From: a virus
Virus record (IMG/VR): IMGVR_UViG_3300029908_000015
Location: 17,185 to 81,184 of that record
Direction: 5' to 3' (one strand)
DNA length: 64,000 nucleotides
A model generated the notes under the pieces. That model saw nothing but the letters and a program-made list of their open reading frames with translations, made no database searches and was not told the DNA's origin. Within the stretch, counting starts at the first letter, position 1. Every line of letters starts with the position of its first letter. A program made the translations under genes and the position numbers. This document shows, piece after piece, positions 6,600-34,641 of the stretch.

Positions 6600-7253
6600 T
6601 TATGAATGACTGATTCCAGGAATGCATTGCGCTTTAAAAAATTCTCGTTCGTCATTAGCTATCGAGCTGTCTTCATACCAAGGAAGATGTTCAATTACAT
6701 AGGGAAAATCTAACCTTACATGCCCGGCAGGCGGCCACTTTGCCCAGCCTGGCTCATACATTGCAAATGTAGTGTCTATTGCAGCACGCCAACAATCGCC
6801 TTCTTTAGTTCGAGTATCCCAATACTTACCTTCACTAATTAGCATTTCTTGTTTCTTTGCATAATGCGCAGGAAGATTATCGATTCGAATAGCCGGTCCA
6901 ACTTTAATAGGAGCATATCTATCGGCAACTTCGTTCATTTTCCTTACTAAATCTTTCGGACAATTTGCATCGGGGACAACATCGGGATCGGTAACAATAT
7001 AACGAGAAGTTTGAATCGGAGACAACCCTAAATGCCAAAATGCATCTTGACCCAAATTTTTCTTTCGATTCAAAACCAATAAATTACTTTCATCATAATA
7101 TTTCAATAAGGGTTCCCAGGTCGATGCATTGTCAATCACTGCAATTTGAGTCATTCCCGCCGAATGCAACCAATCAACCAATTTTCGAAACCCACGTTCT
7201 AAATTATTAAAATTTGTAATATAAATAGGAGTTGCTTTCCAATCAGTTATCAT
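6600..7253 (-). CDS. GT-A type glycosyltransferase
   Basis: 217 residues. A Rossmann-like N-terminus with IAVIDNAS, then the metal-binding segment TDPDVVPD near residue 88, fits family-2-like glycosyltransferases. No membrane segment is present, so it should act in the cytoplasm, most likely on DNA, a modified base or a capsid protein. It overlaps the stop of the upstream gene by four bases and is the last gene of the modification operon, which also holds a GT-B enzyme and two sugar-type oxidoreductases. The substrate cannot be read from the sequence. Confidence 0.7.
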   Translation of the reverse strand: MITDWKATPIYITNFNNLERGFRKLVDWLHSAGMTQIAVIDNASTWEPLLKYYDESNLLVLNRKKNLGQDAFWHLGLSPIQTSRYIVTDPDVVPDANCPKDLVRKMNEVADRYAPIKVGPAIRIDNLPAHYAKKQEMLISEGKYWDTRTKEGDCWRAAIDTTFAMYEPGWAKWPPAGHVRLDFPYVIEHLPWYEDSSIANDEREFFKAQCIPGISHS

Positions 7254-7741
7254 TCACTTTCCTCAGTATATTCGAACTCTAAATCAAGCTTTTCTACTAC
7301 AAAGTCATCTAATTTAATTTTAAAATCAGGTAACGTTTTAGGAATATCTCCCTCATAATTTTTAGCAACAGAAATATGAGGAATATATTCCGCAAAATCA
7401 TATGTTGCACCCATATCTTTGGATGCATTAAAAATAGTTGTCAGCTCCGAATCTTCTAATTTTAGAACTAGCAAATGATCTTTCCCAAAAATTTCCCAAC
7501 CGATAGGATTAACATTAATAGGAACTTCTGGATTAAGATTGGCTAGCTCTGGCACTGGCTTACGAGAATAAACAATAGTTACATGATATTCGCTAGGATC
7601 CACCAAATTCTCAAAATTCTTCTCTTTTAACCAAGCCGATAATTTATTACGAGACTTATCGGATAATGTCATCTTAGCATAGGTACCCGACGTGGGTTCT
7701 TTCTGTTCCTCTTCCATTAAAAAATCACTAAACAATTTCAT
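7250..7741 (-). CDS. 2H phosphoesterase, Acb1-like anti-CBASS protein
   Basis: 163 residues. The two catalytic motifs of 2H phosphoesterases are present, H-V-T at 53-55 and H-I-S at 122-124. As I recall, T4 Acb1 (gp57B) uses H44/T46 and H113/T115; the spacing of 69 residues is the same here. Surrounding text, SGTYAKMTLSD at the front and ATYDFAEYIPH before the second motif, also fits. Acb1 cuts the cyclic nucleotide signals of bacterial CBASS immunity. The second motif has Ser instead of Thr, which many 2H enzymes tolerate. No clear ribosome site was found; the gene follows its neighbour by five bases. Confidence 0.75.
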   Translation of the reverse strand: MKLFSDFLMEEEQKEPTSGTYAKMTLSDKSRNKLSAWLKEKNFENLVDPSEYHVTIVYSRKPVPELANLNPEVPINVNPIGWEIFGKDHLLVLKLEDSELTTIFNASKDMGATYDFAEYIPHISVAKNYEGDIPKTLPDFKIKLDDFVVEKLDLEFEYTEESE

Positions 7742-7746: not shown

Positions 7747-8115
7747 TTATACGTATCCTCTTGCAAAATTTTCGATATCATCCTGAAATTTAAAAAGCAA
7801 AGCAATCTGTTCATCAGCAATATATAAAATCGAATCTGTTGATTTTCCGTAAAAATAATGAGGGGAAGGCATTCGAGTTAACCCGATAAGAAGAGCGGCG
7901 GTCCATGTAATACCTAGCGGTATACTAAATTCGTAAAAGGAAATTTTGGCTTCGCGAAAACGTTCAAATCCTTTTTCACTTAATCGCATACTACTATTAT
8001 TTCCAATACGATGCCACCAAAATTTATCTTCGCCATATGGCAATTCGATGCCAGTACGGCGCAAATATCCACGATATACTTTAGCAGTCCATTCGTCTTT
8101 TGTTAATAAACTCAT
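7747..8115 (-). CDS. Conserved-looking phage protein of unknown function
   Basis: 122 residues. It begins with a DEW...YRGYL helix, has a short basic central part and a hydrophobic helix near residues 70-85, and ends with a charged segment. I do not recognise a domain. The start overlaps the end of the PurA-like gene by four bases, indicating translational coupling within the operon. Confidence 0.65.
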   Translation of the reverse strand: MSLLTKDEWTAKVYRGYLRRTGIELPYGEDKFWWHRIGNNSSMRLSEKGFERFREAKISFYEFSIPLGITWTAALLIGLTRMPSPHYFYGKSTDSILYIADEQIALLFKFQDDIENFARGYV

Positions 8116-9143
8116 AGTGATAAAGTTAATCCTACGTTAGGAGAGTATCCAATATAAGATACTGGTATTCCAAATCTATGCTCTATGTCCCAAATAAAAA
8201 ATTTAGTTTTATCTGTTAAATCATCAAACCTTTTTGCATTAATATTCTCACAATCTAAATAATCAACAAAATTAATAGCTAATTTGGTTGGCCGATTAAT
8301 TTCAATTGCTCTCTTTAATAATTCATAGTCAAATCGACCGACTCTTCTTAATTTTTTAGTAACCGTTGTATATTCCTTGATTGAATGAGAATACCCACTT
8401 TCCTCCTGTAGCGTTTCCCAATCAATTTCATTATATAATGGCACAGCCTGCTGACCGGCTACTCTGATTGGAAAGGTTCGAAGTACCATAACTATTTCAT
8501 TTACCAATAAAGGACTAATTCCGCATTCACTGATGCATCCCGACGCAGAAGTATCTCTAGAAGTTGCTTTAGGATAAAATCCGCCGTGATAAAGTGAGAG
8601 CCCAAATCCTTGGGTGCCTTCTACCAGAATATTTTTACCATCATCGATACCTGTATTTATTTCCTTCGATGCATCAACTATAAAAGATTTAATTTCAGGA
8701 ATATCTTTTGCTAATATAATATCATTACCACGAAGAATCTTACGAGATACCGCCGCGCCAACGCCACATAATGTCGAACTAATATTAGTTCGCATATTAA
8801 GGTCATTTTCATCTCTAATATCTTGAGGCTGAATTATCATAGCATTTGCGTCGATACCAACTCGTTCTGGTCCTAATTTTAATAAATTTAATTCGGCTAC
8901 CAGAACATCGATATCAATTAAACCTCCGGACGGAATTAGCAATCTAGAGTTTAACCTAAGAATTCCGCTAGGTATTTGTCGAAGCACATGATTTACTCCA
9001 TAATTATCGGTAAAACAATGTCCCGAATTTGGGCCGCCGCACCTAACACATATATCGATATTTTCTTTTTGCGTTATGAAAGAAGAAATTTTACCTTTTC
9101 CTTCAGAGCCAAACTGACCGCCAACAACTACCCAAACGCCCAT
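8112..9143 (-). CDS. Adenylosuccinate synthetase homologue, PurZ-like
   Basis: 343 residues from the ATG at 9143, with AGGAG seven bases upstream. Clear PurA-superfamily signatures: GSEGKGK at residues 12-18, CGGPNSGH, IPSGI, VEGTQG and a TTVTKKLRRVGR segment. The bacterial enzyme reads GDEGKGK here; its catalytic Asp is Ser in this protein. The protein is also about 90 residues shorter than bacterial PurA. Both traits are, to my knowledge, those of phage PurZ enzymes, which join aspartate to dGMP on the way to 2-aminoadenine (base Z). A role in plain purine supply is possible but less likely without the Asp. It directly follows the RNase H gene (1 base gap). Confidence 0.8.
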   Translation of the reverse strand: MGVWVVVGGQFGSEGKGKISSFITQKENIDICVRCGGPNSGHCFTDNYGVNHVLRQIPSGILRLNSRLLIPSGGLIDIDVLVAELNLLKLGPERVGIDANAMIIQPQDIRDENDLNMRTNISSTLCGVGAAVSRKILRGNDIILAKDIPEIKSFIVDASKEINTGIDDGKNILVEGTQGFGLSLYHGGFYPKATSRDTSASGCISECGISPLLVNEIVMVLRTFPIRVAGQQAVPLYNEIDWETLQEESGYSHSIKEYTTVTKKLRRVGRFDYELLKRAIEINRPTKLAINFVDYLDCENINAKRFDDLTDKTKFFIWDIEHRFGIPVSYIGYSPNVGLTLSL

Positions 9144-9144: not shown

Positions 9145-10137
9145 TTAACTCCTAGGAAAAGCCGTTCCAAGCAACTGAGAAAAATAATTTGCCTGGTCAC
9201 TAATTTTATTTAACTCATACTTCCCACAGAATTTTAAAAAGTGAAATCCTAGCTGAGGGACCGACTTTGGTTCACACGCATCGGCTATTGTTTCAGAAAT
9301 TACCGTACATATTTCATCCGGTTGTTTAGACAAATCAACTAATCCCACATTACGGTTGTAATCATCTAACACTCGATGCTCTAGGCCCTCATGATCTGTC
9401 CAACGAGTTAACATAAAAGCATTCCAAGAAAATCCCTGTCTATTTCGATCATCAAACGCTTCTTGCATACCCACTTTATTCTTTGATCCTTTTTTACGAG
9501 CTCCCGGGTAGGCGGCGAATACATTATCTGTTACGCAACCACGCACCGCTTTCTCAAATACAGACCAGTGTGGGTCATCTGGCATTTTTGGAGAGCCGGT
9601 TTTTTTATCTTTTACAGGATTATTTTTATAATCAAAAATACCGTTAAGTGTAATAGTTTGATCCATAATACCATCATACATTGTAACATTGTCGGCGAGT
9701 AGCTGAACAAAATCTTTATCCGAACTTACAACAATATGGGCATCATCAGGATGGGACTGAATAAATCCAGCTACCAAATCATCGGCTTCTAAAATGGGAT
9801 TATATAAAACAGTGCAATTGGTACGCTCAGTTATAAACTTTTGAAAATCGGAAAACGCCGAATAAAAAATAGTGTCTAATTCTTGCTGTGCCGGCGTCGC
9901 TAGCGCTCTTTTTTCCGCGCGATTTCTTTTATATGGAGCGTAAACCGATTTCCTCCACGATTTTCCATCAAATGCAAAAATTATATGGTCGGCTTTCTGC
10001 ACTCGCCATAACTTTCCCAAACTTGCGAAAATAATATGCAGACACATACCGGCAATTTCGTCAGGTGTTCCTTTAACCGTGTACTTGGACCGGTTAAATA
10101 AATGGGATGCGTCAACAATTAAAAATGTATTCTTCAT
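9145..10137 (-). CDS. rnh: T4 RNase H-type 5'-3' exonuclease/flap nuclease
   Basis: 330 residues. Acidic metal-site motifs of the FEN-1/T4 RNase H family are visible in order: an N-terminal DASHLFNR, AFDG with SVYAPYKRNR, EADDLVAG near residue 118 and SSDKDF near 138. In T4 this nuclease removes RNA primers on the lagging strand. A C-terminal helical part follows, as in the family. The start at 10137 follows the upstream gene by three bases. Confidence 0.85.
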   Translation of the reverse strand: MKNTFLIVDASHLFNRSKYTVKGTPDEIAGMCLHIIFASLGKLWRVQKADHIIFAFDGKSWRKSVYAPYKRNRAEKRALATPAQQELDTIFYSAFSDFQKFITERTNCTVLYNPILEADDLVAGFIQSHPDDAHIVVSSDKDFVQLLADNVTMYDGIMDQTITLNGIFDYKNNPVKDKKTGSPKMPDDPHWSVFEKAVRGCVTDNVFAAYPGARKKGSKNKVGMQEAFDDRNRQGFSWNAFMLTRWTDHEGLEHRVLDDYNRNVGLVDLSKQPDEICTVISETIADACEPKSVPQLGFHFLKFCGKYELNKISDQANYFSQLLGTAFPRS

Positions 10138-11031: not shown

Positions 11032-11883
11032 CTAACTACCCCATACATTTTTCCAGAGTTCAACCTGGAGTCTCGGTGAATATCTATACCCATTTGTGAT
11101 CGCCAATTCAGCAACTCTTTTATTTGTTAAATTATACGTTTCGGTGGTTCCCCCGACTGGCATGACATACACCGAACCGGTAAACCCAGCATCTCGATAT
11201 TCTTTCACCGCTAATTTTGCATCGTCGAAATCTTCTTCGGTCCCGACAACAAACTTCAAATATGTTCTACTACCAGGAATCATTGTATATCCTATAACTA
11301 CCTTAGGTTTAATAGATGACTCCCAGGTTTCACCTGAGCAAGGCAATTTTGCGCTAACCGAAAAAGTAGTTTCTAACTTGCTATTATTAAAGTGCCGACA
11401 AAGAGCCATTCTTAGTTCACTAGTAATTTCCATCGTACCATTCGTTTCAAAAGTGAGATGTGTTAAGCCCATATCGCGTTTAACAAATTCATCTAACAAT
11501 TCTGGGTATTGTTTTTGCCAGGCCAATAATGGTTCTCCACCAGTTAAAATTAAATGGCAATCCTGATTAAATTTCCCGTTATGCAATAATAGCTGAATAC
11601 GATCTGCAATTTGTGATATCGTTTGTTCTGGACTAAAATCCTTAAATCGTGGATCCCACGACATATAGGAATCGCAGCCTGTAGAAACCAATGGAGCATC
11701 TTCATATTTTGTCAATTGTTCGGGTAAAATTGTAAAGCGTTCTACACTTTTTTCGCCGCGCGGCATTGAGAAGCCTTCGCACTTTTTATTGCAGCCAAAT
11801 ACCCTTAGAAAAATTGAAGGAACCCCCTGATACATTCCTTCTCCCTGAAGCGATTCGAAAATTTCACCAACCTTAATTGCCAT
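11032..11883 (-). CDS. queE: QueE, 7-carboxy-7-deazaguanine synthase (radical SAM)
   Basis: 283 residues. It opens with the QueE signature IFESLQGEGMYQGVPS and FLRVFGCN, then LTGGEPLLAWQ and FETNGT. The iron-sulfur cysteines are CxxxC (near residues 31-35) followed by the third Cys 35 residues later in GCDSY, so the cluster loop carries a long insertion compared with the usual CX3CX2C. The enzyme rearranges carboxy-tetrahydropterin to 7-carboxy-7-deazaguanine (CDG), the third step after FolE and QueD, both upstream in the same operon. Ribosome site AGGAG is seven bases before the ATG. Confidence 0.85.
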   Translation of the reverse strand: MAIKVGEIFESLQGEGMYQGVPSIFLRVFGCNKKCEGFSMPRGEKSVERFTILPEQLTKYEDAPLVSTGCDSYMSWDPRFKDFSPEQTISQIADRIQLLLHNGKFNQDCHLILTGGEPLLAWQKQYPELLDEFVKRDMGLTHLTFETNGTMEITSELRMALCRHFNNSKLETTFSVSAKLPCSGETWESSIKPKVVIGYTMIPGSRTYLKFVVGTEEDFDDAKLAVKEYRDAGFTGSVYVMPVGGTTETYNLTNKRVAELAITNGYRYSPRLQVELWKNVWGS

Positions 11884-11890: not shown

Positions 11891-12421
11891 CTAATTTACA
11901 TAAATCAACTTAATTTTGGTTTCATCAAACATCGAAAGTGAAATTTTAAAATCCTCACCCCATCGAGGATGATCTACGTCTGGGTTAATGCACGAAATTT
12001 CTTTAATACCGGCTTGAATAATTGCTCCTGCACAACCTTAGCAAGGAAACCAATCTAATGCAATCCCCATTCCTTCTAGCGACGTTCCGAGACGAGCTGC
12101 ATTATAAATTGCATTCGTTTCGGCATGAACAGTATATTTGTATTTTAACGGACGCTCATTTCTTTCATCTATTTTCTTAATTGCTTCGAGGCGAACTGCA
12201 CGCGGAATTGAACAACCCACTTGACGTTCGCGTTCTTGTAATTTCAAGTCAAATGCCTCTCCTGAATCGTATACTCCTCTAGGAAACCCGTTATATCCAA
12301 TACTAACGATTGAATTAGTAGTTGGATTGTAAATTACGGCGCCAACCTTTGAGGATGTATCTTTGCTCCACTTAGCAAAAAATGATGCAGCCTCTACAAA
12401 TCTTTTATTCCAATTAATCAT
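11891..12421 (-). pseudogene. cd: dCMP deaminase interrupted by TAA in the active site
   Basis: The frame from 12421 encodes a typical deoxycytidylate deaminase with VHAETNAIYNAA (His zinc ligand and Glu), but stops at TAA (12038-12040) right after F-P-C. Reading on in the same frame gives G-C-A-G-A-I-I-Q-A-G-I and about 49 more residues to a TAG at 11891, exactly what should follow in the family. The stop therefore replaces one variable residue of the zinc motif PCxxC. Without readthrough the protein lacks a zinc ligand and should be dead. A sequencing error, a recent mutation or suppression are all possible. Full length would be 177 residues, similar to T4 Cd. Confidence 0.85.
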
Positions 12422-15743: not shown

Positions 15744-16439
15744 TTAACCTTTCATAGATGCAACAATATGAAAAAATTCATCCTTTTGGGATTGTGATTC
15801 CCTGATAGAACCGCGTACAACACTTGTTGTAAATGCGCTTTCAGCAGCCTGAACGCCGCGCTCTGTAAGACATCCATGAGATGCCTTAATTAGTACGGCT
15901 ACACCCTTTGCTTCTGTAATACGTTCAATTTCATCTGCTATCTGAACCGTTAATTCTTCTTGAATAGTTGGACGATTTGAAAACCATTCCGTAATGCGAT
16001 TAAATTTAGATAATCCAATTACTTTCTTACCGGGGAAAACACCGATATATGCAACACCGGTAATATTTTGGAAATGGTGGGCACAAACCGAATGAATTGC
16101 TATTGGTCCTGCTACTAATAATTGATCATATTCTTTTGCGTTCGGAAAACTAGTAACCTTAGGCTCTGGCAAATAACGCCCACTAAGAGTTTCAGTAATA
16201 TACATCTTAGCCATACGGTGAGCGGTATCTTTTGTATTATGATCGTTACGAGTATCTATTACTAGACTAGATAATACCGATTCCATTTTCCTTGCTACTT
16301 CGTCTTCTAATAAATGTAATTCGGGGGGATTGATAAATTTACTAATATTATCCGTTGATTTAAAATTTGCATTTGCTCGAGTAATACGTTCTTTAATAAC
16401 CTCGGAAATACAAACCGTTCCTTCTACAATATTCTGCAT
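15744..16439 (-). CDS. folE: FolE, GTP cyclohydrolase I
   Basis: 231 residues. The catalytic region SVCAHHFQNITGVAYIG and the downstream VIGLSKFNRI and SHGCLTERGV carry the zinc Cys/His ligands and substrate residues of GTP cyclohydrolase I. An N-terminal extension of about 40 residues is not typical. It makes dihydroneopterin triphosphate, the first step towards 7-deazaguanine. First gene of the operon: a perfect sigma70 promoter lies at 16467-16495 and AAAGGAT precedes the ATG. The absence of other folate genes supports the modification role. Confidence 0.9.
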   Translation of the reverse strand: MQNIVEGTVCISEVIKERITRANANFKSTDNISKFINPPELHLLEDEVARKMESVLSSLVIDTRNDHNTKDTAHRMAKMYITETLSGRYLPEPKVTSFPNAKEYDQLLVAGPIAIHSVCAHHFQNITGVAYIGVFPGKKVIGLSKFNRITEWFSNRPTIQEELTVQIADEIERITEAKGVAVLIKASHGCLTERGVQAAESAFTTSVVRGSIRESQSQKDEFFHIVASMKG

Positions 16440-16567: not shown

Positions 16568-17700
16568 ATGGATATTTATTCAGACAAAACTATCAACTTC
16601 GTATTATGTTCTATGAAAATTCATCATGGAAAATATTCTTATCCTCAAACCATATTTCGAATTAACACCGAAAAAGTAATTATAACATGCCCTATACACG
16701 GAGATTTTCAGCAAACACCCAAGATGCATCTTAACGGTACTAACTGCCGATTATGCTCTTATAAAAATAACTCTGAAAAGTATACAAGAACAAAAGAACA
16801 ATTCATTAATTTAGCCAATAAAAAACATTTGAACAAATATTCATATGATAAATCAATATATGTAGGCTGCAAAATTCCATTAATAATTACCTGCCCTATA
16901 CACGGAGATTTTCAGCAACTACCGGCCAATCATTTGATAGAAAGTGGTTGTTCCTATTGTTCTCATGGTGCGGTACGGCAAATTTTATTCGAAAGGCAAA
17001 TATAATTCATAAAAAATTCTATACATATCAAGATTCGGACTGTAGGGGCAGTGAAATACCATTAACTATTACCTGTCCCATTCATGGAAATTTTAGTCAG
17101 AAACCAGTTAATCATCTTCGTGGCAGTGGTTGTCCTGTATGTGGCCGGGATCGAACTACCTGGAATTTAAATGATTTTCTATTAACAGCTAATAAATTAC
17201 ATAATAAATATTATTCTTATGAAAAAATTATTTGGCGCGGTGCACAAGAAAAAATTGAAATTATTTGTCCAAAGCACGGATCTTTTTACCAAAAAGCATA
17301 CGGTCATATATATGGTGCCGGTTGCCCAAAATGCCATCTAAGCCACGGTGAAAGAGTAGTTGAAAAATACCTATCAGAAAATCATATAATATTTTCTGTG
17401 CAAATTAAAATTCCAGAATGACGTGACAAAAAATCGATGCCATTTGATTTCGGTATTTTTAATTCTTCAAATAAATTATTAGGACTTATCGAATATCAAG
17501 GAGGTCATCATTATCTTAAAGTTAAATGGAATAAAAACATGACAGAACTTGAGGCTGAAAGACGATTAAAGAAAGTTCAACATCATGATAAGCTAAAAAT
17601 GGAATTTTGCCAGAAAAATAATATTCCATTTTTAGCTATTCACTATCAAGATAATGTTTCTGCGGTACTTTCAAAATTTATTACTCGTATAAATTATTAA
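16568..17700 (+). pseudogene. Broken zinc-ribbon-repeat/VSR-like homing endonuclease gene
   Basis: Three reading-frame pieces form one gene. Repeated modules of about 60 residues with ITCPIHGDFQQ and a closing CxxC pair are followed by a VSR-like nuclease end (MPFDFGIFN, GLIEYQGGHHY). The gene starts well (AAGGAGG, ATG at 16568), shifts frame around 16975-16985 and meets an in-frame TGA at 17419-17421 between P-E and R-D-K-K, where homologues usually have Cys or Trp. Such proteins are free-standing phage endonucleases. It is on the opposite strand to its neighbours, a sign of insertion, and its end overlaps the 3' end of dpdA by 20 bases. Confidence 0.75.
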
Positions 17701-19198
17701 AAGATGTTAGGGAATTTTTAGTCTTTTTTCCGGTATTCCTACTAGGTGTACCGGAAAATTTTTGCCAGTATGCAGTATAGTGATCTATTAATTTCATAGC
17801 CTTACCATAATCACTGGTTGAAAAAATATCCTCGATAATGTCTTTTAAATACAGTCGATCATAGTACATCATTGGTTTATTACCTTTTGCAAGAGTTGAT
17901 AATGCCGCCGGATAAAGCCCAGAGTCATATTTCTTATTGCATTCTATTACAGTCATAATATGCATATATACATTATGTGCCATTTGCAAAGCGTAACTAA
18001 ACGAATCAAACGAAGTCTTTCCGATTTTGCCTAACTTATTTAGATCCGTTGGCCCGTATGAACAAATATCATGCCCGGTTAATCGAGCACTAATCGGACT
18101 GTCGATAAATTCGTCAAATATACCATCTTGTTCGAGAATATCTTTTAAGGATCGCATGTCGGTTGAATATTTTTTATCATCGATAAACGGCGCAACAAAA
18201 AAAGTCCAATCATCTTTAGATGCATCGAATAATTTATAATAAATTGTGGCAAACGTCGAAGAAAGGAACGGTGTTGCGCAATCATAACTAAGCGTTATTT
18301 TTGGATTATGATATTTGCGCAATGCTTTCTGCACATCTGTTAATAACAAACTCCATTCTAAATTGCTATTGCCTAAAAAGTGAATCCAATCGTGAATGCC
18401 GGGTTCCAAAAGGCCATCAAATCTCTGCTGAACCAACATCTTTAGAGCTAGGTGAGGATCCGCAGATGTCTGACTACCATAGGCCCAGCCATTAAACGGA
18501 GATTCATATTGTTTCGGATCGCAATATTTCTTTACTTGCTTATACCAATCTTCTGCTTCGGCGTGTGTATTTCCCTGCAAAATATTAAGAAATTTACACG
18601 ACCCGTTTCGATTTCGCATAAAATATTCGTTATTAATTTGCGTTGCCTTAACTGCGTCTGCATATGTATTAATGCCTGTTAACTTTCGAACTCGATCTTT
18701 CTTCACAATAACTGGACTAACATCAAGTGTCATCCCGTATTGTGCTTTTAGATTGCAATCCATCCAATTCAAAACTTGTTTACGTTTTGCCCCAGCCCTA
18801 GGACAATTAGGATCTTTCCAATCGCCGGACCATTTTTCATTTCCGGATAGAATCTGAAACCCGCCACTATCGGCTAGAATAAAATCAGTTTGATCCCGCT
18901 CATATACCATCGATTCAGATTGTGCAATTTTTGTTAAATCCGTGTGCCCGGCTGAATAAAGATTATGACTATAATTAAAATAACCATTCTTTTTATCTAA
19001 CCAATTTAAACCATCAATTGATCCGTTGAATCCGACAGGAATTCTAGACGGATCAACCTCACCACGAAGATGATATTTTTGTCGTCCGATATATCGTATA
19101 AAAAATGTGCTAAGTGCAGGCAAATATAATGAATACTTCGCTAATCCGGTTTTTGGATCAAATAACTCTTTATCAATATTATGCTGTGAAAATTCCAC
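17681..19198 (-). CDS. dpdA: DpdA, DNA-guanine transglycosylase
   Basis: About 505 residues from a GTG at 19198 that overlaps the previous stop; an in-frame ATG at 19240 would add 14 residues. Signatures of the TGT/DpdA superfamily: ILADSGGFQIL (substrate Asp), NWMDCN, MTLDVSPVIV and SYDCATPFLSS. The tRNA enzymes' C-terminal zinc cluster is not apparent, which points to the DNA enzyme. DpdA swaps guanine in DNA for a 7-deazaguanine base; FolE, QueD and QueE, needed to make the precursor, are next door. Confidence 0.85.
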   Translation of the reverse strand: MEFSQHNIDKELFDPKTGLAKYSLYLPALSTFFIRYIGRQKYHLRGEVDPSRIPVGFNGSIDGLNWLDKKNGYFNYSHNLYSAGHTDLTKIAQSESMVYERDQTDFILADSGGFQILSGNEKWSGDWKDPNCPRAGAKRKQVLNWMDCNLKAQYGMTLDVSPVIVKKDRVRKLTGINTYADAVKATQINNEYFMRNRNGSCKFLNILQGNTHAEAEDWYKQVKKYCDPKQYESPFNGWAYGSQTSADPHLALKMLVQQRFDGLLEPGIHDWIHFLGNSNLEWSLLLTDVQKALRKYHNPKITLSYDCATPFLSSTFATIYYKLFDASKDDWTFFVAPFIDDKKYSTDMRSLKDILEQDGIFDEFIDSPISARLTGHDICSYGPTDLNKLGKIGKTSFDSFSYALQMAHNVYMHIMTVIECNKKYDSGLYPAALSTLAKGNKPMMYYDRLYLKDIIEDIFSTSDYGKAMKLIDHYTAYWQKFSGTPSRNTGKKTKNSLTSFNNLYE

Positions 19199-19392
19199 TA
19201 TGTTGCCACCTGTATCGGTAATACTCGAACTGTTTGCCAAAAACCACCGCCGTTATAATATGCTATATATTCTTGCTGAATTTCAACCGGTTCTAGCCAA
19301 TAAACATATCGTGTTTTGGGATCGGTAATTTTTAAAAATGCAAATTTAACTTTTGACCGTACGGCTCCGTATTCAACTTCTTTCCAATGCAT
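19198..19392 (-). CDS. Small hypothetical protein before dpdA
   Basis: 64 residues, not recognised, rich in aromatic residues and probably all beta. AAAGGAAA is about five bases before the ATG. Its TAG stop shares a base with the GTG start of dpdA, so the two are likely coupled. Confidence 0.6.
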   Translation of the reverse strand: MHWKEVEYGAVRSKVKFAFLKITDPKTRYVYWLEPVEIQQEYIAYYNGGGFWQTVRVLPIQVAT

Positions 19393-20244: not shown

Positions 20245-21453
20245 TTATTCAAAAAAATCAAAAAAGGTATTAATTTTACGAGTCCCTTCTTCTATTGCTT
20301 TCCATATTGGTAACTTTCCCAAGAGATTTTCTAACTTTTTATCTACCACCGCGGCAATCATTGCATCATTGTCAAATGGTAGTTTAGTAAACCAATCCGG
20401 TAGATGGGATTCATCTGTTGGATAAGCAACCGAAGTCATATTCAGTTGATTCTCTTTTAAAGGGCAAACCACACACTTCTGCCCATCAACGATACGAGTA
20501 TGAACATTATCGTTATTCATTTTTCTTAATGAATTCCAATTAATTGCCGCTCTGACGTGTCCAGGAACTCGATTACCTTTTCCTTGTGCAATTTGGTCCG
20601 CATAAAATGTTAGCTTGTTGACACGCTTCGGTGTACCTTGCTCATGTAATGGCAATGCTTTAAACTTATCCTTGAATATATTAATTTTTGCTGTTAAATC
20701 ATCAACTGTTTTACCTTGTAGTAAATCCATTAATATTTCACTTAAAAATTTCTGGCAAACTTCCGGGGTATCACTGCGACGCAAATCTAATCCCATTGCT
20801 TTTAATTTTAAATGATCGTCACCATAAAACTTACCATCTTTAAAATAATTAAGAATTGCATATCGTTTTTTAGTAATATATAAACCACGATAACCTACTG
20901 ATTCGCAAGATGATTTAATTAATTGACCAAATTTATCCGGACAATTATACGATCTCTTCATATAATCGGCGTAAGAATCGTTAACTTGCTCTCCAATCTT
21001 CAAATATAGCTGAACTGCAATATCTCGATTCCATTCAACTTGACCTTCATCTATCATATCTTTCATCACTGGCCAAGCCGAAAATTGAGTTGAATCTGTA
21101 TCCCCATAATGAATTGCTCTTCCTAGATAGTTATATTCTCCAGTTATACATTCATTAACAAACGAACTCTGATGCCTTACAATTCCCCTACCGGTTAAAG
21201 TAACCGATTGCCCTACACGTTTGTCAAAAAAACGAGAACTTGGTTGGAGCAGCGTTCCATATGTCGCATTGAGTAGGAGTTTTTTTGCGTGCTGCAATCC
21301 ATCATAATATTCTACCTGTTTTTTAATTTCCGATATGTTTTTAGAAAAAATTTTTCCATTTCGGATTTCAAGATTATTATTTGTTATAAATTGTTTAATA
21401 TCCGAGATATTTCCATTAACAAATAACTCCCGAAGTTTTTTTACTTCCACCAT
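20245..21453 (-). CDS. 43: DNA polymerase, family B, C-terminal part
   Basis: 402 residues containing the second half of the polymerase palm and the thumb: motif B as KKLLLNATYGTLLQ near residue 58 and motif C as YGDTDS near residue 118. It starts with its own ATG, inside the last 13 bases of the endonuclease gene, so translation is likely coupled to it. Together with the product of 22733-24388 it makes up a complete polymerase with no obvious missing block. The two chains must assemble to be active. Confidence 0.85.
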   Translation of the reverse strand: MVEVKKLRELFVNGNISDIKQFITNNNLEIRNGKIFSKNISEIKKQVEYYDGLQHAKKLLLNATYGTLLQPSSRFFDKRVGQSVTLTGRGIVRHQSSFVNECITGEYNYLGRAIHYGDTDSTQFSAWPVMKDMIDEGQVEWNRDIAVQLYLKIGEQVNDSYADYMKRSYNCPDKFGQLIKSSCESVGYRGLYITKKRYAILNYFKDGKFYGDDHLKLKAMGLDLRRSDTPEVCQKFLSEILMDLLQGKTVDDLTAKINIFKDKFKALPLHEQGTPKRVNKLTFYADQIAQGKGNRVPGHVRAAINWNSLRKMNNDNVHTRIVDGQKCVVCPLKENQLNMTSVAYPTDESHLPDWFTKLPFDNDAMIAAVVDKKLENLLGKLPIWKAIEEGTRKINTFFDFFE

Positions 21454-22634
21454 ATATGATCCTTATTATAATTATACTCAGATAATGGCATCATTACAAC
21501 ACCTATTTCCTTTAATGTTTTACCACCATATATTTCCGAAAACCTAATTCGTTCAGCAAATTTCCTTTTAGTGGTGCCGGGAATAACAAAATTTAGTATT
21601 GATAAATCCCTGGGACTATGATTTTGCAAGGCACACCGTGATTTCATATACTTTAAAAAATCACCAAGTAAAAAATAATAATTTTCAAAATTAGCAACAA
21701 TTACTTTTTCCAATGATGTGCCCGCTACTCGATAATATGTATTTGAAAAATCTTTCTTCCCGATTAATTTAAATTTTTTATCACGAATATCTAATACTCT
21801 TTTATTATTTGGATTATTCGCAGTTGCAAACCCTTTATTTTTAAAAATTCTTCCTTCGATAAATCCTTCAGGACGTGGCGCATTTTCATTAATTCTTAAA
21901 GTTTCCCCGGTAGTATTATTTGACACCCATCTTGATTCTGTTATATATGAATAATCGGTGTGTTTTAACCAATCGGGGTATCCCTTAACAAACCCAGGTA
22001 AAATTTCATGCATTTGTGCTACTTCTCTCGTTTTAGGATTATACTGCCATATTTTACCAGTAAAATTCCGGCTGCATAAATCCTTTGACTCTTGGGTACG
22101 CACTCTACCTGTTTGAAAAGGCTCCCACTCATCTGATTGAGATCCAATCGACATACGTAATAACTCTTTGGTTATTTTATGACGATAAATATTCGTATCC
22201 GCAAATAATTTCGACATATAATCACGCTGTTCTTGTGTTCGCACTTTCCCGGTATTATTTTCAGATATTAGTTTTGCAAATTCTATACGAACGGCCTGAT
22301 ATAACCGGCAGTTAGTAATTCCTCTAGATTTTGAGACACGGCGCATCTGATTAAATGAGTAAATACAACTGCGATCACGAATTGATTTAAATAATAGATA
22401 ATGTAGAAGATAATGAGCTTTAGGTTCAACAACGATAATATTCCAGGATTCATGCTTATATTCAGGAAATATCGCCACCGGCAAAATATGATGTTTCTCT
22501 ACTGAACCCAAACCCGATTTGACTAAATCCTGCGGTAAAAATTTTAGCAATTTAAAATATCGAATAAATTGTCTTTCGTTTTTAACTTTTCCGGTATTGC
22601 GAAACATATTTTCCATGTAAAATAAATCGAACAT
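21441..22634 (-). CDS. HNH-type homing endonuclease between the polymerase halves
   Basis: 397 residues. The nuclease core is EKHHILPVAIFPEYKHESWN followed about 15 residues later by H-Y-L-L-H, as in HNH endonucleases, near residues 46-80. The remaining 300 residues contain modular DNA-binding repeats with TGKIWQYN and RTQEQRDY/RTQESKDL elements. Its place exactly at the break in the polymerase gene suggests that the enzyme split the gene by homing. GGGAT lies about eight bases before the ATG. Confidence 0.7.
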   Translation of the reverse strand: MFDLFYMENMFRNTGKVKNERQFIRYFKLLKFLPQDLVKSGLGSVEKHHILPVAIFPEYKHESWNIIVVEPKAHYLLHYLLFKSIRDRSCIYSFNQMRRVSKSRGITNCRLYQAVRIEFAKLISENNTGKVRTQEQRDYMSKLFADTNIYRHKITKELLRMSIGSQSDEWEPFQTGRVRTQESKDLCSRNFTGKIWQYNPKTREVAQMHEILPGFVKGYPDWLKHTDYSYITESRWVSNNTTGETLRINENAPRPEGFIEGRIFKNKGFATANNPNNKRVLDIRDKKFKLIGKKDFSNTYYRVAGTSLEKVIVANFENYYFLLGDFLKYMKSRCALQNHSPRDLSILNFVIPGTTKRKFAERIRFSEIYGGKTLKEIGVVMMPLSEYNYNKDHIWWK

Positions 22635-22732
22635 TTAATAATCCCTATATAATGTTTTTATCATAGTGAACTACCGCGATTCAATGCGTTCTAACGCACG
22701 TGAAGTACACACGGGCTTGACTCGTAAAGCCA

Positions 22733-24388
22733 CTAAGAGGAAAGAGCATCAATTAAATTATCTGGTATCGTTATACCAAATGATAAATCTACAAATTCTT
22801 CTTTTTTTGCTTGTAGTTCTTTTCTTTCTGCATACCATTTAGCTAATAATCCAGGAATAATCGCTTCTTGATCATAACTAAAAATTGTTCCGTTACCACT
22901 TAGCATCCATTTCTGATCGCTATAAAAAATGATATCATAAATCTGAGAAGCTGAAAGAGTATCACTTGTACCTGTTGATTCCCAATCAATAATAATATCT
23001 ACGCCAGGTTTTCGATCAATAACCGCCTGATATTCTAGAGTTGAAAAAACACCCTCCCACGCATGAGAATAAGTCATGCCTTTTTGTGACATTTTTTCAG
23101 CAACAAATGCCTCTGTAAGTGTGGGGCGCAACTGTCCAATAATAGTTTCTATTCCCATGTTTAATGCACGAATTGTACTAGGATATAGTGAATTAATATC
23201 AATTACACCTAGCCATTCGTGAATTCCTACTTTTGGATCGGCTACATATGCGCCTACTGCGGCTGGCTCGTCATCGTCTTTCTGAGAACTATATTTTGGT
23301 TTATTTGGAACAATCATACCCAAATCATGGGCTCTATTAATAATAGCCTGGTCTGTTTTGGCTACGGTTCCCATACAAGTAGGTAAAAGAGTGGTTGTAT
23401 CATGGGCGACAACATTAATAAGTTCAATAAACTTTAATTTATTGTCTAACTGCTCCAATAGATTAACATCTTGCCTATTATATCTAATAAATAATTCAAA
23501 ATCATTATTATATAAATCATCTAATGAACCTTTATATTCAGTCTTACTACTTCCTAATTCATATTCAGCAATAGAATTTAATGAATATGAATGACGTTCT
23601 TCATATGTGAATTTTCGGTATAAATCCATCATATCGATATGAATCTTGCCAACTAATTCATACGTCTTAAATTCTTTACCATATTTTTCAACTACTTTAG
23701 CCTTTGGTTTTTCATTCCAGGATAATTCACATAATCTACGAGTATCATCTTTACTCATCACTCGTTGGATTCGATTAACAAGATATGGAATATCGAATCC
23801 TTCGCTATTCCATCCTGATATAACATCGCTGTCTTCTAATATATCGAGAGCGGCATTAAGCATATCAACTTCATTATCGAACACATATGTGTTCTCGAAT
23901 TTATTTGCTATACTCTGCCCCTCGTCGAAAGTAATAGTTTTAGGTGGAATTGCTACAGTAATTAGTTTATTACACCAAACTAGATCAATTGTAATTGCGG
24001 TTATTTTATTAAAGGGGTCCTCGATGGGCGAGTATCCCTTATCCTTATCGAAATCAACTTCGATATCGATAAGAGCAACATGAAGATCAGGAGCGGGCTT
24101 ACCTTTATAATTTTCCGATAAACATTTAAAAGTAAGATTTAAATCTGACTCCCAAATCTTTTTATCTGTACCTTTAAGGATCGCTAGTTCTTTGTAAAAT
24201 TCACTAGAAGTTTTAGGGGTAATTTTTGTTAGAGGCGTATTATAAATTGATTTATAAGACCCATTCGGATCATCGATATAGAAACTATAATCGACAGGAT
24301 AATTATTGAACACTCTCTTGCCATTGACTCGTTCGATAACTTCAATACGATCATTCTTACGATCTATTCTAGCTGTAATATATGACAT
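22733..24388 (-). CDS. 43: DNA polymerase, family B, N-terminal part
   Basis: 551 residues. Proofreading motifs are present: Exo I as LIDIEVDF (near residue 106), Exo II as ISGWNSEGFDIPYLVNR and Exo III as YNRQDVNLL; then palm motif A, DINSLYPSTIRALNMG. It ends with a TAG after I-D-A-L-S-S in the loop before motif B, which is in the separate gene 20245-21453. There is no ribosome site; the promoter at 24395-24423 places the mRNA start at the ATG. Confidence 0.9.
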   Translation of the reverse strand: MSYITARIDRKNDRIEVIERVNGKRVFNNYPVDYSFYIDDPNGSYKSIYNTPLTKITPKTSSEFYKELAILKGTDKKIWESDLNLTFKCLSENYKGKPAPDLHVALIDIEVDFDKDKGYSPIEDPFNKITAITIDLVWCNKLITVAIPPKTITFDEGQSIANKFENTYVFDNEVDMLNAALDILEDSDVISGWNSEGFDIPYLVNRIQRVMSKDDTRRLCELSWNEKPKAKVVEKYGKEFKTYELVGKIHIDMMDLYRKFTYEERHSYSLNSIAEYELGSSKTEYKGSLDDLYNNDFELFIRYNRQDVNLLEQLDNKLKFIELINVVAHDTTTLLPTCMGTVAKTDQAIINRAHDLGMIVPNKPKYSSQKDDDEPAAVGAYVADPKVGIHEWLGVIDINSLYPSTIRALNMGIETIIGQLRPTLTEAFVAEKMSQKGMTYSHAWEGVFSTLEYQAVIDRKPGVDIIIDWESTGTSDTLSASQIYDIIFYSDQKWMLSGNGTIFSYDQEAIIPGLLAKWYAERKELQAKKEEFVDLSFGITIPDNLIDALSS

Positions 24389-24749: not shown

Positions 24750-25340
24750 TTATATTGTATAGTGGAATTTATTCGGCATATTTTTCTTAATATCAAAATC
24801 TAAAAAATTATCTAATTGATTTTTATATTCGTCGTATGATACGGCTATATAATTTCCATGTATACATATTTCCATTGATTTTTTAAGAGCAATTTTAATA
24901 TTTGTGTTATTGTATTTCAACGTCGATACAAACTCTTCGGGCGACAAATTTTCTAACTCCTGCTTCGATAATTTAAGTTCTTCATGTAAATCAGCATACC
25001 GGCAAAAGGAAAAATCAAAACCATTAATGGGAAAAATAATATAAGGGTTTCCATAATACTCAGTTGAAAAATAGTCACTTGCGCAAAAAATACTATTTGA
25101 TCGTAATGCCTTAAACCCGGCGGCACGCAACTTACTATCAATTAACTCTTGCAAATCAAGAGTAGTATCCATCGGCTTTCTATTAATAGGTGATTGACCG
25201 TTAATTATAGATTTCTCCGATTTAATTCCTCGGAACAAAACCTTATTACATGAACGAAATATTTTTAAAATATTCGAGCAGTCTGATTCGATTATATAAG
25301 AAAATTTACTAAGAGACCCATCAAATTCTAGTAACTTCAT
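24750..25340 (-). CDS. ADP-ribosyltransferase-like paralogue 1
   Basis: 196 residues from the ATG at 25340 (AAGGAAGG just upstream); an earlier ATG lacks a site. Conserved blocks of the paralogous family: F-R-G at 36-38, ALRSNSIFCAS (78-88), IIFPINGFDF, and M-E-I-C-I-H-G-N-Y with E157. The order Arg / Ser block / Glu follows the R-S-E scheme of ADP-ribosyltransferases such as T4 Alt and ModA. The start M-K-L-L-E resembles a T4-type prohead protease site. Last gene of the effector operon. Enzyme activity is inferred from motif order only. Confidence 0.55.
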   Translation of the reverse strand: MKLLEFDGSLSKFSYIIESDCSNILKIFRSCNKVLFRGIKSEKSIINGQSPINRKPMDTTLDLQELIDSKLRAAGFKALRSNSIFCASDYFSTEYYGNPYIIFPINGFDFSFCRYADLHEELKLSKQELENLSPEEFVSTLKYNNTNIKIALKKSMEICIHGNYIAVSYDEYKNQLDNFLDFDIKKNMPNKFHYTI

Positions 25341-25350
25341 TTTACCTTCC

Positions 25351-26208
25351 TTACTCGTCATCGTCTTGATCTTCATCACCTTGAAAAATAGGAACTTGCC
25401 CTAATAATTCTAATTGATCTGATTTTAACCAGCAACTCGATTCACAGTCATATCCGTACGTAAATTGTGTTGCTCCATCATAACCAGCATAACTATATGA
25501 CCCGAAATTATAATGATGAATGCAATCAAAATGCTTCTGTAATTCTTGCCAAGGAAAATCTTTTTTAATCAAATCATCCGGAGACCCGTATGATTTTATT
25601 CGTTCCCATTCTGCAGGATCTAAATATGCTGAATTACCACGGCCCAATTTTTCAAAAATTTCATAAATTATTTTTGCATCATCGGTTGAATCTAATTCAT
25701 AAACTACAGTGTTCGGCTTAACCTTGTATACATAACCTATTTTACTTTGCCTAGATATTCCCAAATCTCCCATTCCATAGGCTTGTATAAATTTATTCCA
25801 TCCGCTTGTCCACTTACCATTTGGTAATTTCTTAGCGGTACTTGTCCATAAAATTGCCCCAACTGGTTTATTATTTCCGGGTAATACCGGGGAGCCGCCG
25901 GCTATAACAGGAGCGCCCTCGTTTAAATTTCTAGACTCCATCGCAGTATCAATATAATTTTTCGCCCAATCGGTAAGATTCCCCTCATCGTCGTATGAAT
26001 ATTTTGCCCTATCTTTAAGTAAATAATCTGATCTTTCTTTTTTCGTAGTATATGATACTGATTTTCTGGGTATAAAAAGCTGAAGTGTTCCGTTAGGAGC
26101 AACCGTAGTGCCATGTTTTTTGTAATATTCTAGGGATTCTCTAGCAGCTTCTATTGGATCATATATTGCTTCAATTTTTTTCTTTTTTGCAAATTCATCT
26201 ATTCTCAT
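25351..26208 (-). CDS. Putative packaged protein with N-terminal MRIDE tag
   Basis: 285 residues, no known family. It has the cluster's N-terminal tag M-R-I-D-E, a basic helical start, and a central region with ILWTSTAKKLPNG and YVYKVKPNTVVYELDS that could be a distant relative of the neighbouring ADP-ribosyltransferase-like proteins (W-T-S as Ser block), although no Arg or Glu motif can be placed with confidence. The C-terminus is very acidic. Start in the same operon, 10 bases before paralogue 1. Confidence 0.55.
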   Translation of the reverse strand: MRIDEFAKKKKIEAIYDPIEAARESLEYYKKHGTTVAPNGTLQLFIPRKSVSYTTKKERSDYLLKDRAKYSYDDEGNLTDWAKNYIDTAMESRNLNEGAPVIAGGSPVLPGNNKPVGAILWTSTAKKLPNGKWTSGWNKFIQAYGMGDLGISRQSKIGYVYKVKPNTVVYELDSTDDAKIIYEIFEKLGRGNSAYLDPAEWERIKSYGSPDDLIKKDFPWQELQKHFDCIHHYNFGSYSYAGYDGATQFTYGYDCESSCWLKSDQLELLGQVPIFQGDEDQDDDE

Positions 26209-26374
26209 TAAAATAGCTCCATATCAATGATATATCGCAGGTAAGGCAGCGACATTCTAATAATCTATTACTCCATTAAGCGGCTACAACTCGATGATTA
26301 CCATCAATTAAATAATCTTTTCTGTTCCATTATTTAACAATAATATTGTTCACGTTAAACTCATCAAATCTCAT
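26209..26374 (-). pseudogene. Remnant of a tagged ParB-like gene
   Basis: An ATG at 26374 with GAGGT upstream starts M-R-F-D-E-F, again the cluster tag, but TAA follows after 14 codons. In the same frame, after the stop, comes D-Y-L-I-D-G-N-H-R-V-V-A-A, the core of the ParB/sulfiredoxin-like fold, then a second TAA. This is best read as the decayed remains of a gene; a 14-residue peptide is possible. Confidence 0.6.
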
Positions 26375-26375
26375 T

Positions 26376-26842
26376 TCATACCTCGCCTGGAATAACTAAA
26401 ATTTTCGGATATGGCTCAACCCCACATATTTTAGCTGCATTTAACCGAGTGTTCCCTGCCGTTAATACTCGTTGACCATAATGTTCTATTACCATCGCCA
26501 TAGGAATTGCATCGTTATTTTCAAATCCTCTTGCAATTCTAAATGGATCTCTAACATAATCAGAATAATACAAACTTATATCTTGCATCATCTGCAAAGA
26601 ACTACCATTTGTCAATCTAGAAATTGAATTAAAATTATCGTATGACAGACGTTCAATTTTGCCCCGTAAAACCGCTAGTTTAGCATTTTTCCAGGTAGAC
26701 CAGCAATTAATATCTGGTAATCCAATTACATCAGGATAATCTCTGTCATTTAAATGTTTGAGATCAAATTCTTTCCGCAACTCGGTATCATTAGGCAAAC
26801 GCCAATTATCATAATGAATTTGTTTAATTTCAAAAGTCTCAT
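26376..26842 (-). pseudogene. ParB-like gene with a frameshift after the start codon
   Basis: The long frame codes for a protein ending in TAGNTRLNAAKICG, a ParB/sulfiredoxin-like core, but it has only a weak TTG start at 26798 and continues upstream without ATG to residues that read E-T-F-E-I-K-Q. A normal ATG at 26842 overlaps the previous stop (ATGA) but is out of frame by one base. Adding one base after codon 2 would give M-R-T-F-E-I joined to the long frame, which matches the tag of other cluster members. So a one-base deletion, a sequencing error or a frameshift event is likely. Confidence 0.6.
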
Positions 26843-27414
26843 ATAATTACTCCAAGCCAGTCTTGAAACCAATATGTTGAAAAAGAATTATAACGAACTG
26901 CTGCATATTTTCCATGAAGGTAAACTTCTACTCCGGTATGCATAGCAAATCCTAAATCAGTATCTTTAAACTCCAAATCTTTAATAAATTTATCTGTTGA
27001 CATATTTTGAATTTGAGGAACATTATATTCCATTTCTTCTGTTAAATCTCGATATTTGCAATATGTATAATCGAATCCGTTAACTGGAAAAATTACATAT
27101 AAACTTCCGCCATCGGCGTATGCTATAGCATCATTCTCCCGACCCGTGCAAAAAATACTATTTGATCGTAATGCCTTAAACCCGGCCGCTTGTAACTTGT
27201 CGTCGATGGCAAATGATAAAAATCTAGGAGTATCTCTTGGCAAACGATTTACTGGTGACTCGTCAATTAAATACTTCTCGGAACTCGCTATTCCTCGGTA
27301 TAAAACTTTTCTATTCTCGCGATACAGCACCAAAATATCAGAACACTTTTCTTTAATGAAAGAAATTATTGCATCATTACCGCTTCCCGAGTTATTGATT
27401 TCTGTTAATCTCAT
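26839..27414 (-). CDS. ADP-ribosyltransferase-like paralogue 2
   Basis: 191 residues. Blocks: L-Y-R-G (Arg40), ALRSNSIFCTG (82-91), YVIFPVNGFDYTYC, and V-E-V-Y-L-H-G-K-Y with E163. The tag M-R-L-T-E is at the N-terminus. The start overlaps the stop of the Nudix gene (ATGA), so both are made together. As close to a minimal version of the family as the window offers, with no insertions. Confidence 0.6.
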   Translation of the reverse strand: MRLTEINNSGSGNDAIISFIKEKCSDILVLYRENRKVLYRGIASSEKYLIDESPVNRLPRDTPRFLSFAIDDKLQAAGFKALRSNSIFCTGRENDAIAYADGGSLYVIFPVNGFDYTYCKYRDLTEEMEYNVPQIQNMSTDKFIKDLEFKDTDLGFAMHTGVEVYLHGKYAAVRYNSFSTYWFQDWLGVII

Positions 27415-28418
27415 ATCTTACCATCGCAGGCCTTAACAATGTTACTTTGACTCTTACGTCCGATCCGATAAAATTCATCGGCGGTTAACCATTTTGTTTC
27501 ACTAACTTCAAAACCAGGTTTATCAAAATCTACGGGATCGGTTACTTCCCCAATAAAAATAGTCATCTCACTGGTTTCTGTATATCCTGTTATTTCACCT
27601 TTCCAACCAATCTTAACGGTGTTAGAAATCAAATTTGAAGGTCTCAACCCGCATTCTTCGTTTGCTTCTCTAAGCCCTGCTTGCATTTCGTTTTCACCAG
27701 CATCAACATGCCCCTTTGCAATCATGGGCTTGTCCCCACCATACGACGGATCGCTGCTAATAACAAATAACATTCGAGCTACGCCGTTATTATCTCGGTA
27801 ATACGGAATAAATCCGGCTTTTTTAATTTGGCTACGATCCCAAGCTTCTTCTAAGTTATTGGACATCGTACCTTTTAATTCACATTCAGCACAACAAAAT
27901 TTCTGGTCAGTCGAATGAATATTTTTAAATGTTATTCCACAAACTGGACATTTTTTATCAACTGTTTTATCCGCATTTGCAAATTCATTATACGTTAAAC
28001 TTTCTTGTACAAGATCCCTCTTTTTCATTTTACGCATAAAACCATCTGGGCGATGAAGGAAAGACGAAATGAGATCTTCCTTCTTACTTCCAATATTGCC
28101 ACCCTCAGCAAATGTATTGGCGATTTCTGTAGCCGCATTAACTATATCATTCATTGTTAATTTACGAGGTTTTTTTCCTCGCAATTCTTCCCACATTAGA
28201 TACATAAAATCCGAAGGATCATCATATATCTCAGCTAATACTTTTTTATTAGTCATATTAATTCTCGAACATCCCATAAATTTTGTACTTAAAATTTTTG
28301 ATTTCTTGGGCTCAGCACCTAAAATAGGGCCGAGCTCGTCAACTTTATCTTGTGGCCCGAGCCACTGAGAATTTCTATACGATTTATCAGATCCTAAAAT
28401 TGTTTTTTTCTTTTTCAC
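27411..28418 (-). CDS. Nudix hydrolase with zinc-ribbon linker
   Basis: 335 residues, GTG start at 28418 overlapping the preceding TAG. A perfect Nudix box (GX5EX7REUXEEXGU) occupies residues 236-258, including LREANEECGL. Before it lies a zinc-finger-like segment, CPVCG at 157-161 and FCCAEC near 175-179, and an N-terminal 150-residue part rich in Lys and Asn that is not recognised. Nudix enzymes cleave nucleoside diphosphates linked to another group, often ADP-ribose or NADH. Being translationally coupled to ADP-ribosyltransferase-like genes on both sides makes ADP-ribose or NAD the first substrates to test. Confidence 0.8.
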   Translation of the reverse strand: MKKKKTILGSDKSYRNSQWLGPQDKVDELGPILGAEPKKSKILSTKFMGCSRINMTNKKVLAEIYDDPSDFMYLMWEELRGKKPRKLTMNDIVNAATEIANTFAEGGNIGSKKEDLISSFLHRPDGFMRKMKKRDLVQESLTYNEFANADKTVDKKCPVCGITFKNIHSTDQKFCCAECELKGTMSNNLEEAWDRSQIKKAGFIPYYRDNNGVARMLFVISSDPSYGGDKPMIAKGHVDAGENEMQAGLREANEECGLRPSNLISNTVKIGWKGEITGYTETSEMTIFIGEVTDPVDFDKPGFEVSETKWLTADEFYRIGRKSQSNIVKACDGKI

Positions 28419-29356: not shown

Positions 29357-29384
29357 GTTTTACTCCTATTCCCTATATCTTGAT

Positions 29385-30195: not shown

Positions 30196-30200
30196 ATTAA

Positions 30201-30207
30201 TATTTAT
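30201..30207 (-). promoter_or_regulatory. Late-type promoter motif (GATAAATA)
   Basis: GATAAATATTAATATG on the minus strand ends in the ATG at 30195; the same 16 bases occur before the gene at 34636. Related to the T4 late promoter TATAAATA. Confidence 0.6.
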
Positions 30208-30635: not shown

Positions 30636-30720
30636 TTAATCTCCTATTTTGAAAATTGAATCTTCTGCTTTTCATTTAATTTAGAACTAATCTTCCAATG
30701 TTTTAATTGTATATTCGGCA

Positions 30721-30984: not shown

Positions 30985-31010
30985 AGTTATACTGCTTTTA
31001 AAATTTCTGA

Positions 31011-33657: not shown

Positions 33658-33667
33658 TTATAAATCC

Positions 33668-34636: not shown

Positions 34637-34641
34637 ATTAA

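Follow-up and report, generated by a model that had tools for sequence, protein, structure and literature searches.

A PurZ-type synthetase gene in a phage is placed by sequence in a third, mainly cellular lineage

We find that a gene of a large phage, on the minus strand at positions 8112 to 9143 of the window (the whole 64-kb stretch analysed here, part of an 81-kb virus record) encodes a homologue of adenylosuccinate synthetase, P0001, of the PurZ (Ser13) type. Judged by its PF00709 match, its signature residues and its place in trees, P0001 is assigned by descent neither to PurZ nor to PurZ0, but to a third, mainly cellular lineage. Z-DNA has been viewed as a phage speciality that depends on enzymes of two lineages, PurZ and PurZ0, with four basal relatives from archaea (PMC12884076). 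The P0001 gene points to a further lineage that is common in cells and sits there in a conserved operon. It also indicates that the key Z enzyme can occur in a phage whose polymerase is of family B and in which the usual helpers are not recognizable. If the cellular enzymes make Z, then the origin of Z-DNA, a possible part for Z in bacterial physiology or immunity, and partial Z substitution in large phages all become testable. In its chemistry P0001 is very probably of the PurZ type. On balance, we favor the reading that it is a synthetase joining dGMP and aspartate to give dSMP, probably driven by GTP, and that the phage captured it from a cellular operon. Beyond the window, the most promising new lead is the widespread cellular Ser-type lineage with an operon of its own.

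The synthetase and its active site

The P0001 reading frame is intact, with an ATG at 9143, 343 codons and a stop, and a Shine-Dalgarno-like AGGAG lies five bases 5' of the start codon. The product matches PF00709 with E = 3e-49. Its residues 7 to 18 read VGGQFGSEGKGK, with Ser13 at the position of Escherichia coli Asp13, which bears out the sequence-only reading of a P-loop GSEGKGK in place of the GDEGKGK of PurA. The best NCBIfam match was PRK04293, the short archaeal type, at 309 bits (cut-off, 368), and the PurZ model gave 219 bits (cut-off, 300). P0001 fell under the cut-off of every NCBIfam PurA and PurZ model, and is thus claimed by no curated family. An AlphaFold model (pLDDT 88) confirms the predicted PurA/PurZ fold, with TM scores of 0.91 to P. 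horikoshii PurA, 0.87 to PurZ0 and 0.85 to phiVC8 PurZ. P. horikoshii PurA is the closest solved structure by fold, as it is by sequence (211 bits). At 339 to 340 amino acids it is as short as P0001 (343 residues), which rules out shortness as the mark of PurZ that it had been taken for.

We compared active sites across 126 aligned proteins, of which 17 were Asp-type PurA and 109 were Ser/Gly types (residue numbers follow E. coli PurA). Every one of the 17 PurA rows has Asp at position 13, whereas each of the 109 others has Ser or Gly there, and the changes K267 to R and T271 to I split the same 17 and 109 rows without exception. Because all three positions separate the two sets perfectly, Ser13 is not a chance replacement. 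Thr128 to Ser and Gly298 to Thr also separate PurA from the Ser/Gly types, with few exceptions. P0001, which lacks the catalytic Asp13 of PurA, has the PurZ state at all five positions (S13, R267, I271, S128 and T298) and carries Lys at 303, as do PurZ0 and phiVC8 PurZ. It retains K16, N38, H41, T129, R143, Q224, T239, V273, T301 and R305. The S-2L PurZ structure accounts for two of these states: Ser13 is a neighbor of the 2-amino group of dGMP, and the equivalent of Arg303, the residue that in PurA balances the ribose 2'-O of IMP, has moved away, so that its contact to this oxygen is lost (PMC8342488).

The GST motif (Thr14) and the Asn or Gln333 of ATP-type PurZ are absent from P0001, which has Glu14 and Asp333. 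Asp333 contacts the guanine of GTP in PurA. ATP-using PurZs carry N or Q there, and the retention of this Asp in P0001 makes GTP its likely donor. P0001 thus has the PurZ0-like combination of Ser13 with a GTP-type Asp333, and GTP use by PurZ0 was reportedly described by Tong et al. in 2023. Our call on the donor rests on residue 333, because donor statements conflict within PMC12884076, which prints ATP as the preferred donor of PurZ0 and GTP as that of PurZ, against its own introduction (PurZ uses ATP).

At the loop position of E. coli G276, P0001 has Val where the other 125 rows have Gly, so its activity may be altered. Among the sequences listed, a GxQA-x-P loop occurs only in P0001 and the acidobacterial proteins, the others having GNSGP; this shared loop adds to the evidence for an acidobacterial-type origin. 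The Val, the long branch of P0001 in trees (0.46) and the solitary position of its gene would fit a decaying or neofunctionalized capture without catalytic activity. The intact frame with its Shine-Dalgarno-like site, the conserved substrate-contact residues listed above and the confidently predicted fold argue against this, and we consider it highly improbable.

A third lineage

In maximum-likelihood trees, all Ser/Gly types form one clade apart from Asp-type PurA (100/100). P0001 falls inside a mainly cellular lineage (support 99/93), where it is nested with proteins of Acidobacteriota (100/99) that are 52 to 59% identical to it; SH-aLRT values for this placement in another tree were 98 and 99. 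Phage PurZ and PurZ0 fall in the sister branch of this lineage (97/86). Approximately unbiased (AU) tests rejected trees that forced P0001 to group with phage PurZ/PurZ0 (p about 1e-98 to 2e-98) or with Asp-type PurA (p = 0.002). The phylogeny with PurA, PurZ and PurZ0 that the sequence-only reading had proposed therefore places P0001 outside PurA proper. The likeness to the PurZ of Z-genome phages that it had noted extends to substitutions beyond Ser13, but does not extend to descent, given that P0001 stands outside the PurZ and PurZ0 clades. The best identity of P0001 to a protein on a phage record is about 36%, and a Sinorhizobium plasmid protein reaches 42%. Scanning viral contigs with P0001 alone returned no relatives; these came to light only once five aligned Ser-type proteins served as the query.

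Cellular relatives and their operon

A scan of GTDB genomes, combining a pattern from five Ser-type proteins with tblastn, gave 372 Ser/Gly-type loci in bacterial and archaeal genomes, with the closest to P0001 in Acidobacteriota. We examined the best 80 of the 372 further and read 78 in full; position 13 was Ser in 72 of these and Gly in 6. A PF00709 search found a full-length canonical PurA as well in 14 of 15 cellular genomes that have a Ser-type enzyme, which suggests that the Ser-type enzyme serves a second function. These two sets of counts rule out that the cellular matches are plain PurA.

P0001 itself might be an ordinary adenylosuccinate synthetase that tolerates Ser13 and boosts the adenine supply by converting IMP to AMP. 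Its top solved-structure match (P. horikoshii PurA) and its Asp333 would agree with such a role. However, the loss of Asp13 together with K267R and T271I is found in no PurA of our alignment, placement in the PurA clade was rejected, and related cellular genomes have a separate PurA. We regard an ordinary PurA as unlikely.

Cellular Ser-type genes are spread patchily over many phyla, and some lie on plasmids. Upstream of the Ser-type gene, 41 of 70 flanked loci have an RNase_H_2 exonuclease/DUF429 gene, often fused to a small kinase; downstream, 49 of the 70 have a gene for a dCTP-deaminase (DCD)/dUTPase-like protein with a C-terminal extension. The DCD-like gene is often followed by one for a deoxynucleoside kinase, and sometimes by one for adenylosuccinate lyase. 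The order exonuclease/DUF429, kinase, Ser-type PurZ, DCD/dUTPase-like protein and deoxynucleoside kinase recurs in many bacterial and archaeal phyla (examples among loci L011-L090 are L012:3036-7293, L030:5964-10721 and L026:5917-10718). In a second arrangement, the kinase is fused to the N-terminus of the synthetase and DUF7002 follows (L007, L009 and L010; L049/L053/L054-type loci). By analogy, the S-2L-type route to dZTP, in which dGMP is made, converted and rephosphorylated, would suit this set of partners. We did not find the operon described in the literature searched, a limited search that is no proof of novelty, and the same literature reports no assay of any third-lineage member.

The phage and its neighboring genes

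A second virus record, IMGVR_UViG_3300029915_000009 (105 kb; G038 / L293-L297, L256), comes from the same phage, being 99.99 to 100% identical where compared. The two records share window positions 18130 to 63785 where read, and the second extends the sequence by about 59 kb, so that about 140 kb of this phage are known and the genome is incomplete. The extension carries QueD, ThyX, thymidine kinase, dUTPase and a CCA-adding enzyme.

The window genes assigned here to the synthetase neighborhood, the polymerase and the 7-deazaguanine set all lie on the minus strand. A 5'-3' exonuclease of the DNA polymerase I N-terminal/FEN type (9145 to 10137; NCBIfam E = 1.6e-16, phrog_107 E = 1.5e-32) adjoins the P0001 gene upstream and ends 1 base before its start. 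Directly downstream, a 122-amino acid open reading frame without assigned function (7747 to 8115; no Pfam or PHROG match) overlaps the P0001 stop by 4 bases. Two genes downstream of P0001 is an Acb1-like anti-CBASS cyclic-nucleotide phosphodiesterase (7250 to 7741; PF23474 E = 1.1e-25, over the cut-off). The window also encodes a short dCMP/dCTP-deaminase-type protein of 127 amino acids (12038 to 12421), whose NCBIfam matches to ComEB (2.8e-6) and an antiphage deaminase (2.5e-8) are below cut-off. The P0001 gene itself stands alone, without the partners seen in cells: profiles found no exonuclease/DUF429, kinase, DCD-like or deoxynucleoside kinase partner on the 81-kb record, and only weak matches, to dUTPase and kinase, on the overlapping record.

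Some further features stand apart from the synthetase. About ten paralogous proteins of 190 to 390 amino acids (window 24750-43312, L294:15566-19982 and L295:3280-3867) have motifs, FLYRGI...GFxALRSNSIFCT...GNEIxIHGxYxA, that recall the R-S-E pattern of ADP-ribosyltransferases; they match no Pfam family over its cut-off. At another locus, L003:9893-13060, a portal-like protein of 1055 amino acids has an intein-like insert with an HNH-type segment.

DNA polymerase and Z-pool genes

The phage has a family B DNA polymerase gene (20245 to 24388) that is split in two by an HNH-type open reading frame. Its N-terminal half, with the 3'-5' exonuclease domain, lies at 22733 to 24388 (PF03104 E = 3.2e-21; PF00136 E = 2e-9) and its C-terminal half at 20245 to 21453 (PF00136 E = 8.7e-15). 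The intervening frame (21441 to 22634) is probably an HNH homing endonuclease, on the evidence of an HHILPVAIF-type HNH start and NUMOD-like repeats seen by eye. The nearest relatives of the polymerase are in the jumbo phages Phosso, PA5oct and Atu_ph07. No family A polymerase (PF00476) was found on the window's record, and a search for DpoZ gave no match in those parts of the overlapping record that were read. The earlier view that a proofreading family B enzyme takes the place of DpoZ was thus correct. The setting is not unique, given that a family B polymerase and a synthetase of this type also occur together on at least one or two further records of large phages. S-2L is also without DpoZ (PMC8342488).

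Known Z-pool partners went unrecognized in the roughly 140 kb that include the PurZ-type gene. On the window's record, a profile search whose positive control scored 1e-143 did not find DatZ, MazZ, DutZ, DmtZ, DUF5664, DpoZ or PurB, and in the extension the same profiles picked up nothing beyond a dUTPase and a weak match to a kinase. Pfam searches for MazG (PF03819) and YfbR (PF12917) were empty over the 140 kb; that for PF04447 had no positive control. The search for MazZ and DatZ advised by the sequence-only reading therefore recovered neither within this part of an incomplete genome. The gene dutZ is present in 98 of 98 PurZ0 genomes (PMC12884076). The dUTPase-type protein on the overlapping record scores 97 bits with TIGR00576 and 59 bits with a three-sequence DutZ profile, and looks nearer by sequence to an ordinary dUTPase than to DutZ.

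Other phages with related enzymes

Members of the cellular lineage of P0001 are carried by viral contigs L091, L092, L094, L096 and L098. A family B polymerase is present on the 312-kb record of L096 and on the records of L098 and L099 (250 and 95 kb), which may come from a single phage; the records of L091 and L094 have a family A polymerase. On these contigs and L099, no operon partners occur near the synthetase, and no known Z-pool genes adjoin it on the viral records of this lineage. Two further phages carry related genes of other lineages. Streptomyces phage Hiyaa, of the PurZ0 type, has its own PurB-like adenylosuccinate lyase (L005:13471-14844). In Bacillus phage vB_BpsS-140, the synthetase (L004:14950-16071; GGQVGSEGKG) branches deeply as sister to the clade of ATP-type PurZ, and genes for RecA, DnaG and adenylate kinase lie close to it.

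That viral synthetases lack partner genes nearby could also be read differently: Z nucleotides may not be meant mainly for phage DNA. The cellular operon could be a nucleotide-based immune or pool-poisoning system, and large phages might carry the synthetase alone so as to counter that system or to let their own DNA pass for self. The exonuclease/kinase and DCD-type genes that flank cellular loci, the patchy spread over many phyla and plasmids, and the anti-CBASS gene two genes away from P0001 would be consistent with this, as would two type I restriction-modification methylases and two integrases among 58 neighbors at eight loci. But many operons at these loci sit among housekeeping genes, PADLOC-DB holds no system that matches, and it is not obvious how a lone synthetase would interfere. 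A defence role for the operon is a guess from gene content, and we give this reading a minor share of the probability.

A 7-deazaguanine gene set

Within 10 kb of the P0001 gene lie genes that suggest 7-deazaguanine DNA modification. GTP cyclohydrolase I (FolE) is at 15744 to 16439 (NF006824 E = 2.9e-48; PF01227 E = 2.8e-47), and a divergent QueE-like radical SAM enzyme is at 11032 to 11883 (TIGR03963 E = 8.6e-15, below cut-off). A candidate DNA-guanine transglycosylase (DpdA-like, TGT-like) at 17681 to 19240 is named from a DSGGFQ motif only. This motif is invariant with two relatives; the protein matched no sequence in Pfam, PHROG or PDB, and a profile search of solved structures gave no confirmation. 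With QueD on the overlapping record, these genes might make P0001 part of the pathway, acting on a 7-deazaguanine nucleotide. PurA homologues act on deazapurine nucleotides in toyocamycin-type clusters. A cluster of this toyocamycin/sangivamycin 7-deazapurine type, on the rhizobial conjugative plasmid pRL23b2 of R. leguminosarum (L008:11375-19722), comprises FolE, a short PurA, PurB, QueE, an IMPDH-family enzyme, nitrile hydratase, QueC, PRTase and QueD.

The PurA of that cluster is, however, of the Asp type. Among phages whose polymerase or TGT-like protein is related to that of this phage, FolE was present in four of four records tested; a Ser-type PurZ was absent, although one of these phages encodes a canonical PurA. 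The other phages with the PurZ lineage of P0001 have no FolE. FolE and PurZ are thus not inherited as a pair across phages. We had first guessed at a deazapurine-nucleotide role, and dropped it on these grounds; it now seems very unlikely. In this group of phages, PurZ was probably acquired after the deazaguanine set, and since most relatives are without a PurZ-type gene, Z is not a group trait.

Proposed function

As a PurZ-type synthetase, P0001 would join aspartate to a guanine nucleotide. The substrate is most likely dGMP, which would yield N6-succino-2-amino-dAMP (dSMP), and the donor is probably GTP and not ATP. Adenylosuccinate lyase and kinases of the host could then convert dSMP to dZTP, which the family B polymerase of the phage could insert opposite T, alongside dATP. 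Z (2-aminoadenine) in virion DNA is thus possible, and it would replace A only in part unless an unseen dATPase helps. The sequences establish the homology, the active-site signature, the place in the tree and the lack of known Z-pool partners in the roughly 140 kb; we infer substrate, donor and fate of the product. The gene would have been acquired from a cellular source of acidobacterial type that has an operon of nucleotide and nuclease genes. More tentatively, and with somewhat less than even confidence, we suggest that a mobile operon in hundreds of bacteria and archaea may make Z nucleotides, whether to defend against phages or to mark DNA, and that its synthetase may have passed repeatedly into large phages that have ordinary polymerases, here from an acidobacterial host.

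Comparison with known systems

P0001 resembles archaeal short PurA (P. horikoshii PH0438, PDB 5K7X/2D7U; PRK04293) in length, Glu14 and Asp333, and has its highest overall similarity and fold score with it (TM 0.91), whereas that PurA has Asp13, K267, T271, G298 and R303 and falls in a separate clade. With the ATP-type PurZ of phiVC8, S-2L and SH-Ab 15497 (PDB 6FM1 and 7ODX), it has in common Ser13, the signature residues and the fold (TM 0.83 to 0.85). It differs in having Glu14 and Asp333 where PurZ has Thr14 and Asn/Gln333, and MazZ, DatZ and DpoZ were not found in the roughly 140 kb. PurZ0, the GTP-type 2-aminoadenylosuccinate synthetase of the Gordonia and Arthrobacter Z phages (PDB 7VF6), is like P0001 in Ser13, R267, I271, T298, K303 and D333 and has the same fold (TM 0.87). 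P0001 nonetheless lies outside the PurZ0 clade and reads GSEGKG where PurZ0 reads GSEAKG; the partners DutZ, DmtZ and DpoZ were not recognized in the same 140 kb of this incomplete genome, and the polymerase here is of family B. The uncharacterized cellular Ser/Gly-type PurZ-like proteins, for example those of Bryobacteraceae, Granulicella, WOR-3, Lokiarchaeota, Nitrospira and the Sinorhizobium plasmid pMl5, belong to the same clade, are 41 to 59% identical to P0001 and have the same active-site signature. Their genes usually stand in an operon with exonuclease, kinase and DCD-like genes, whereas the phage gene stands alone.
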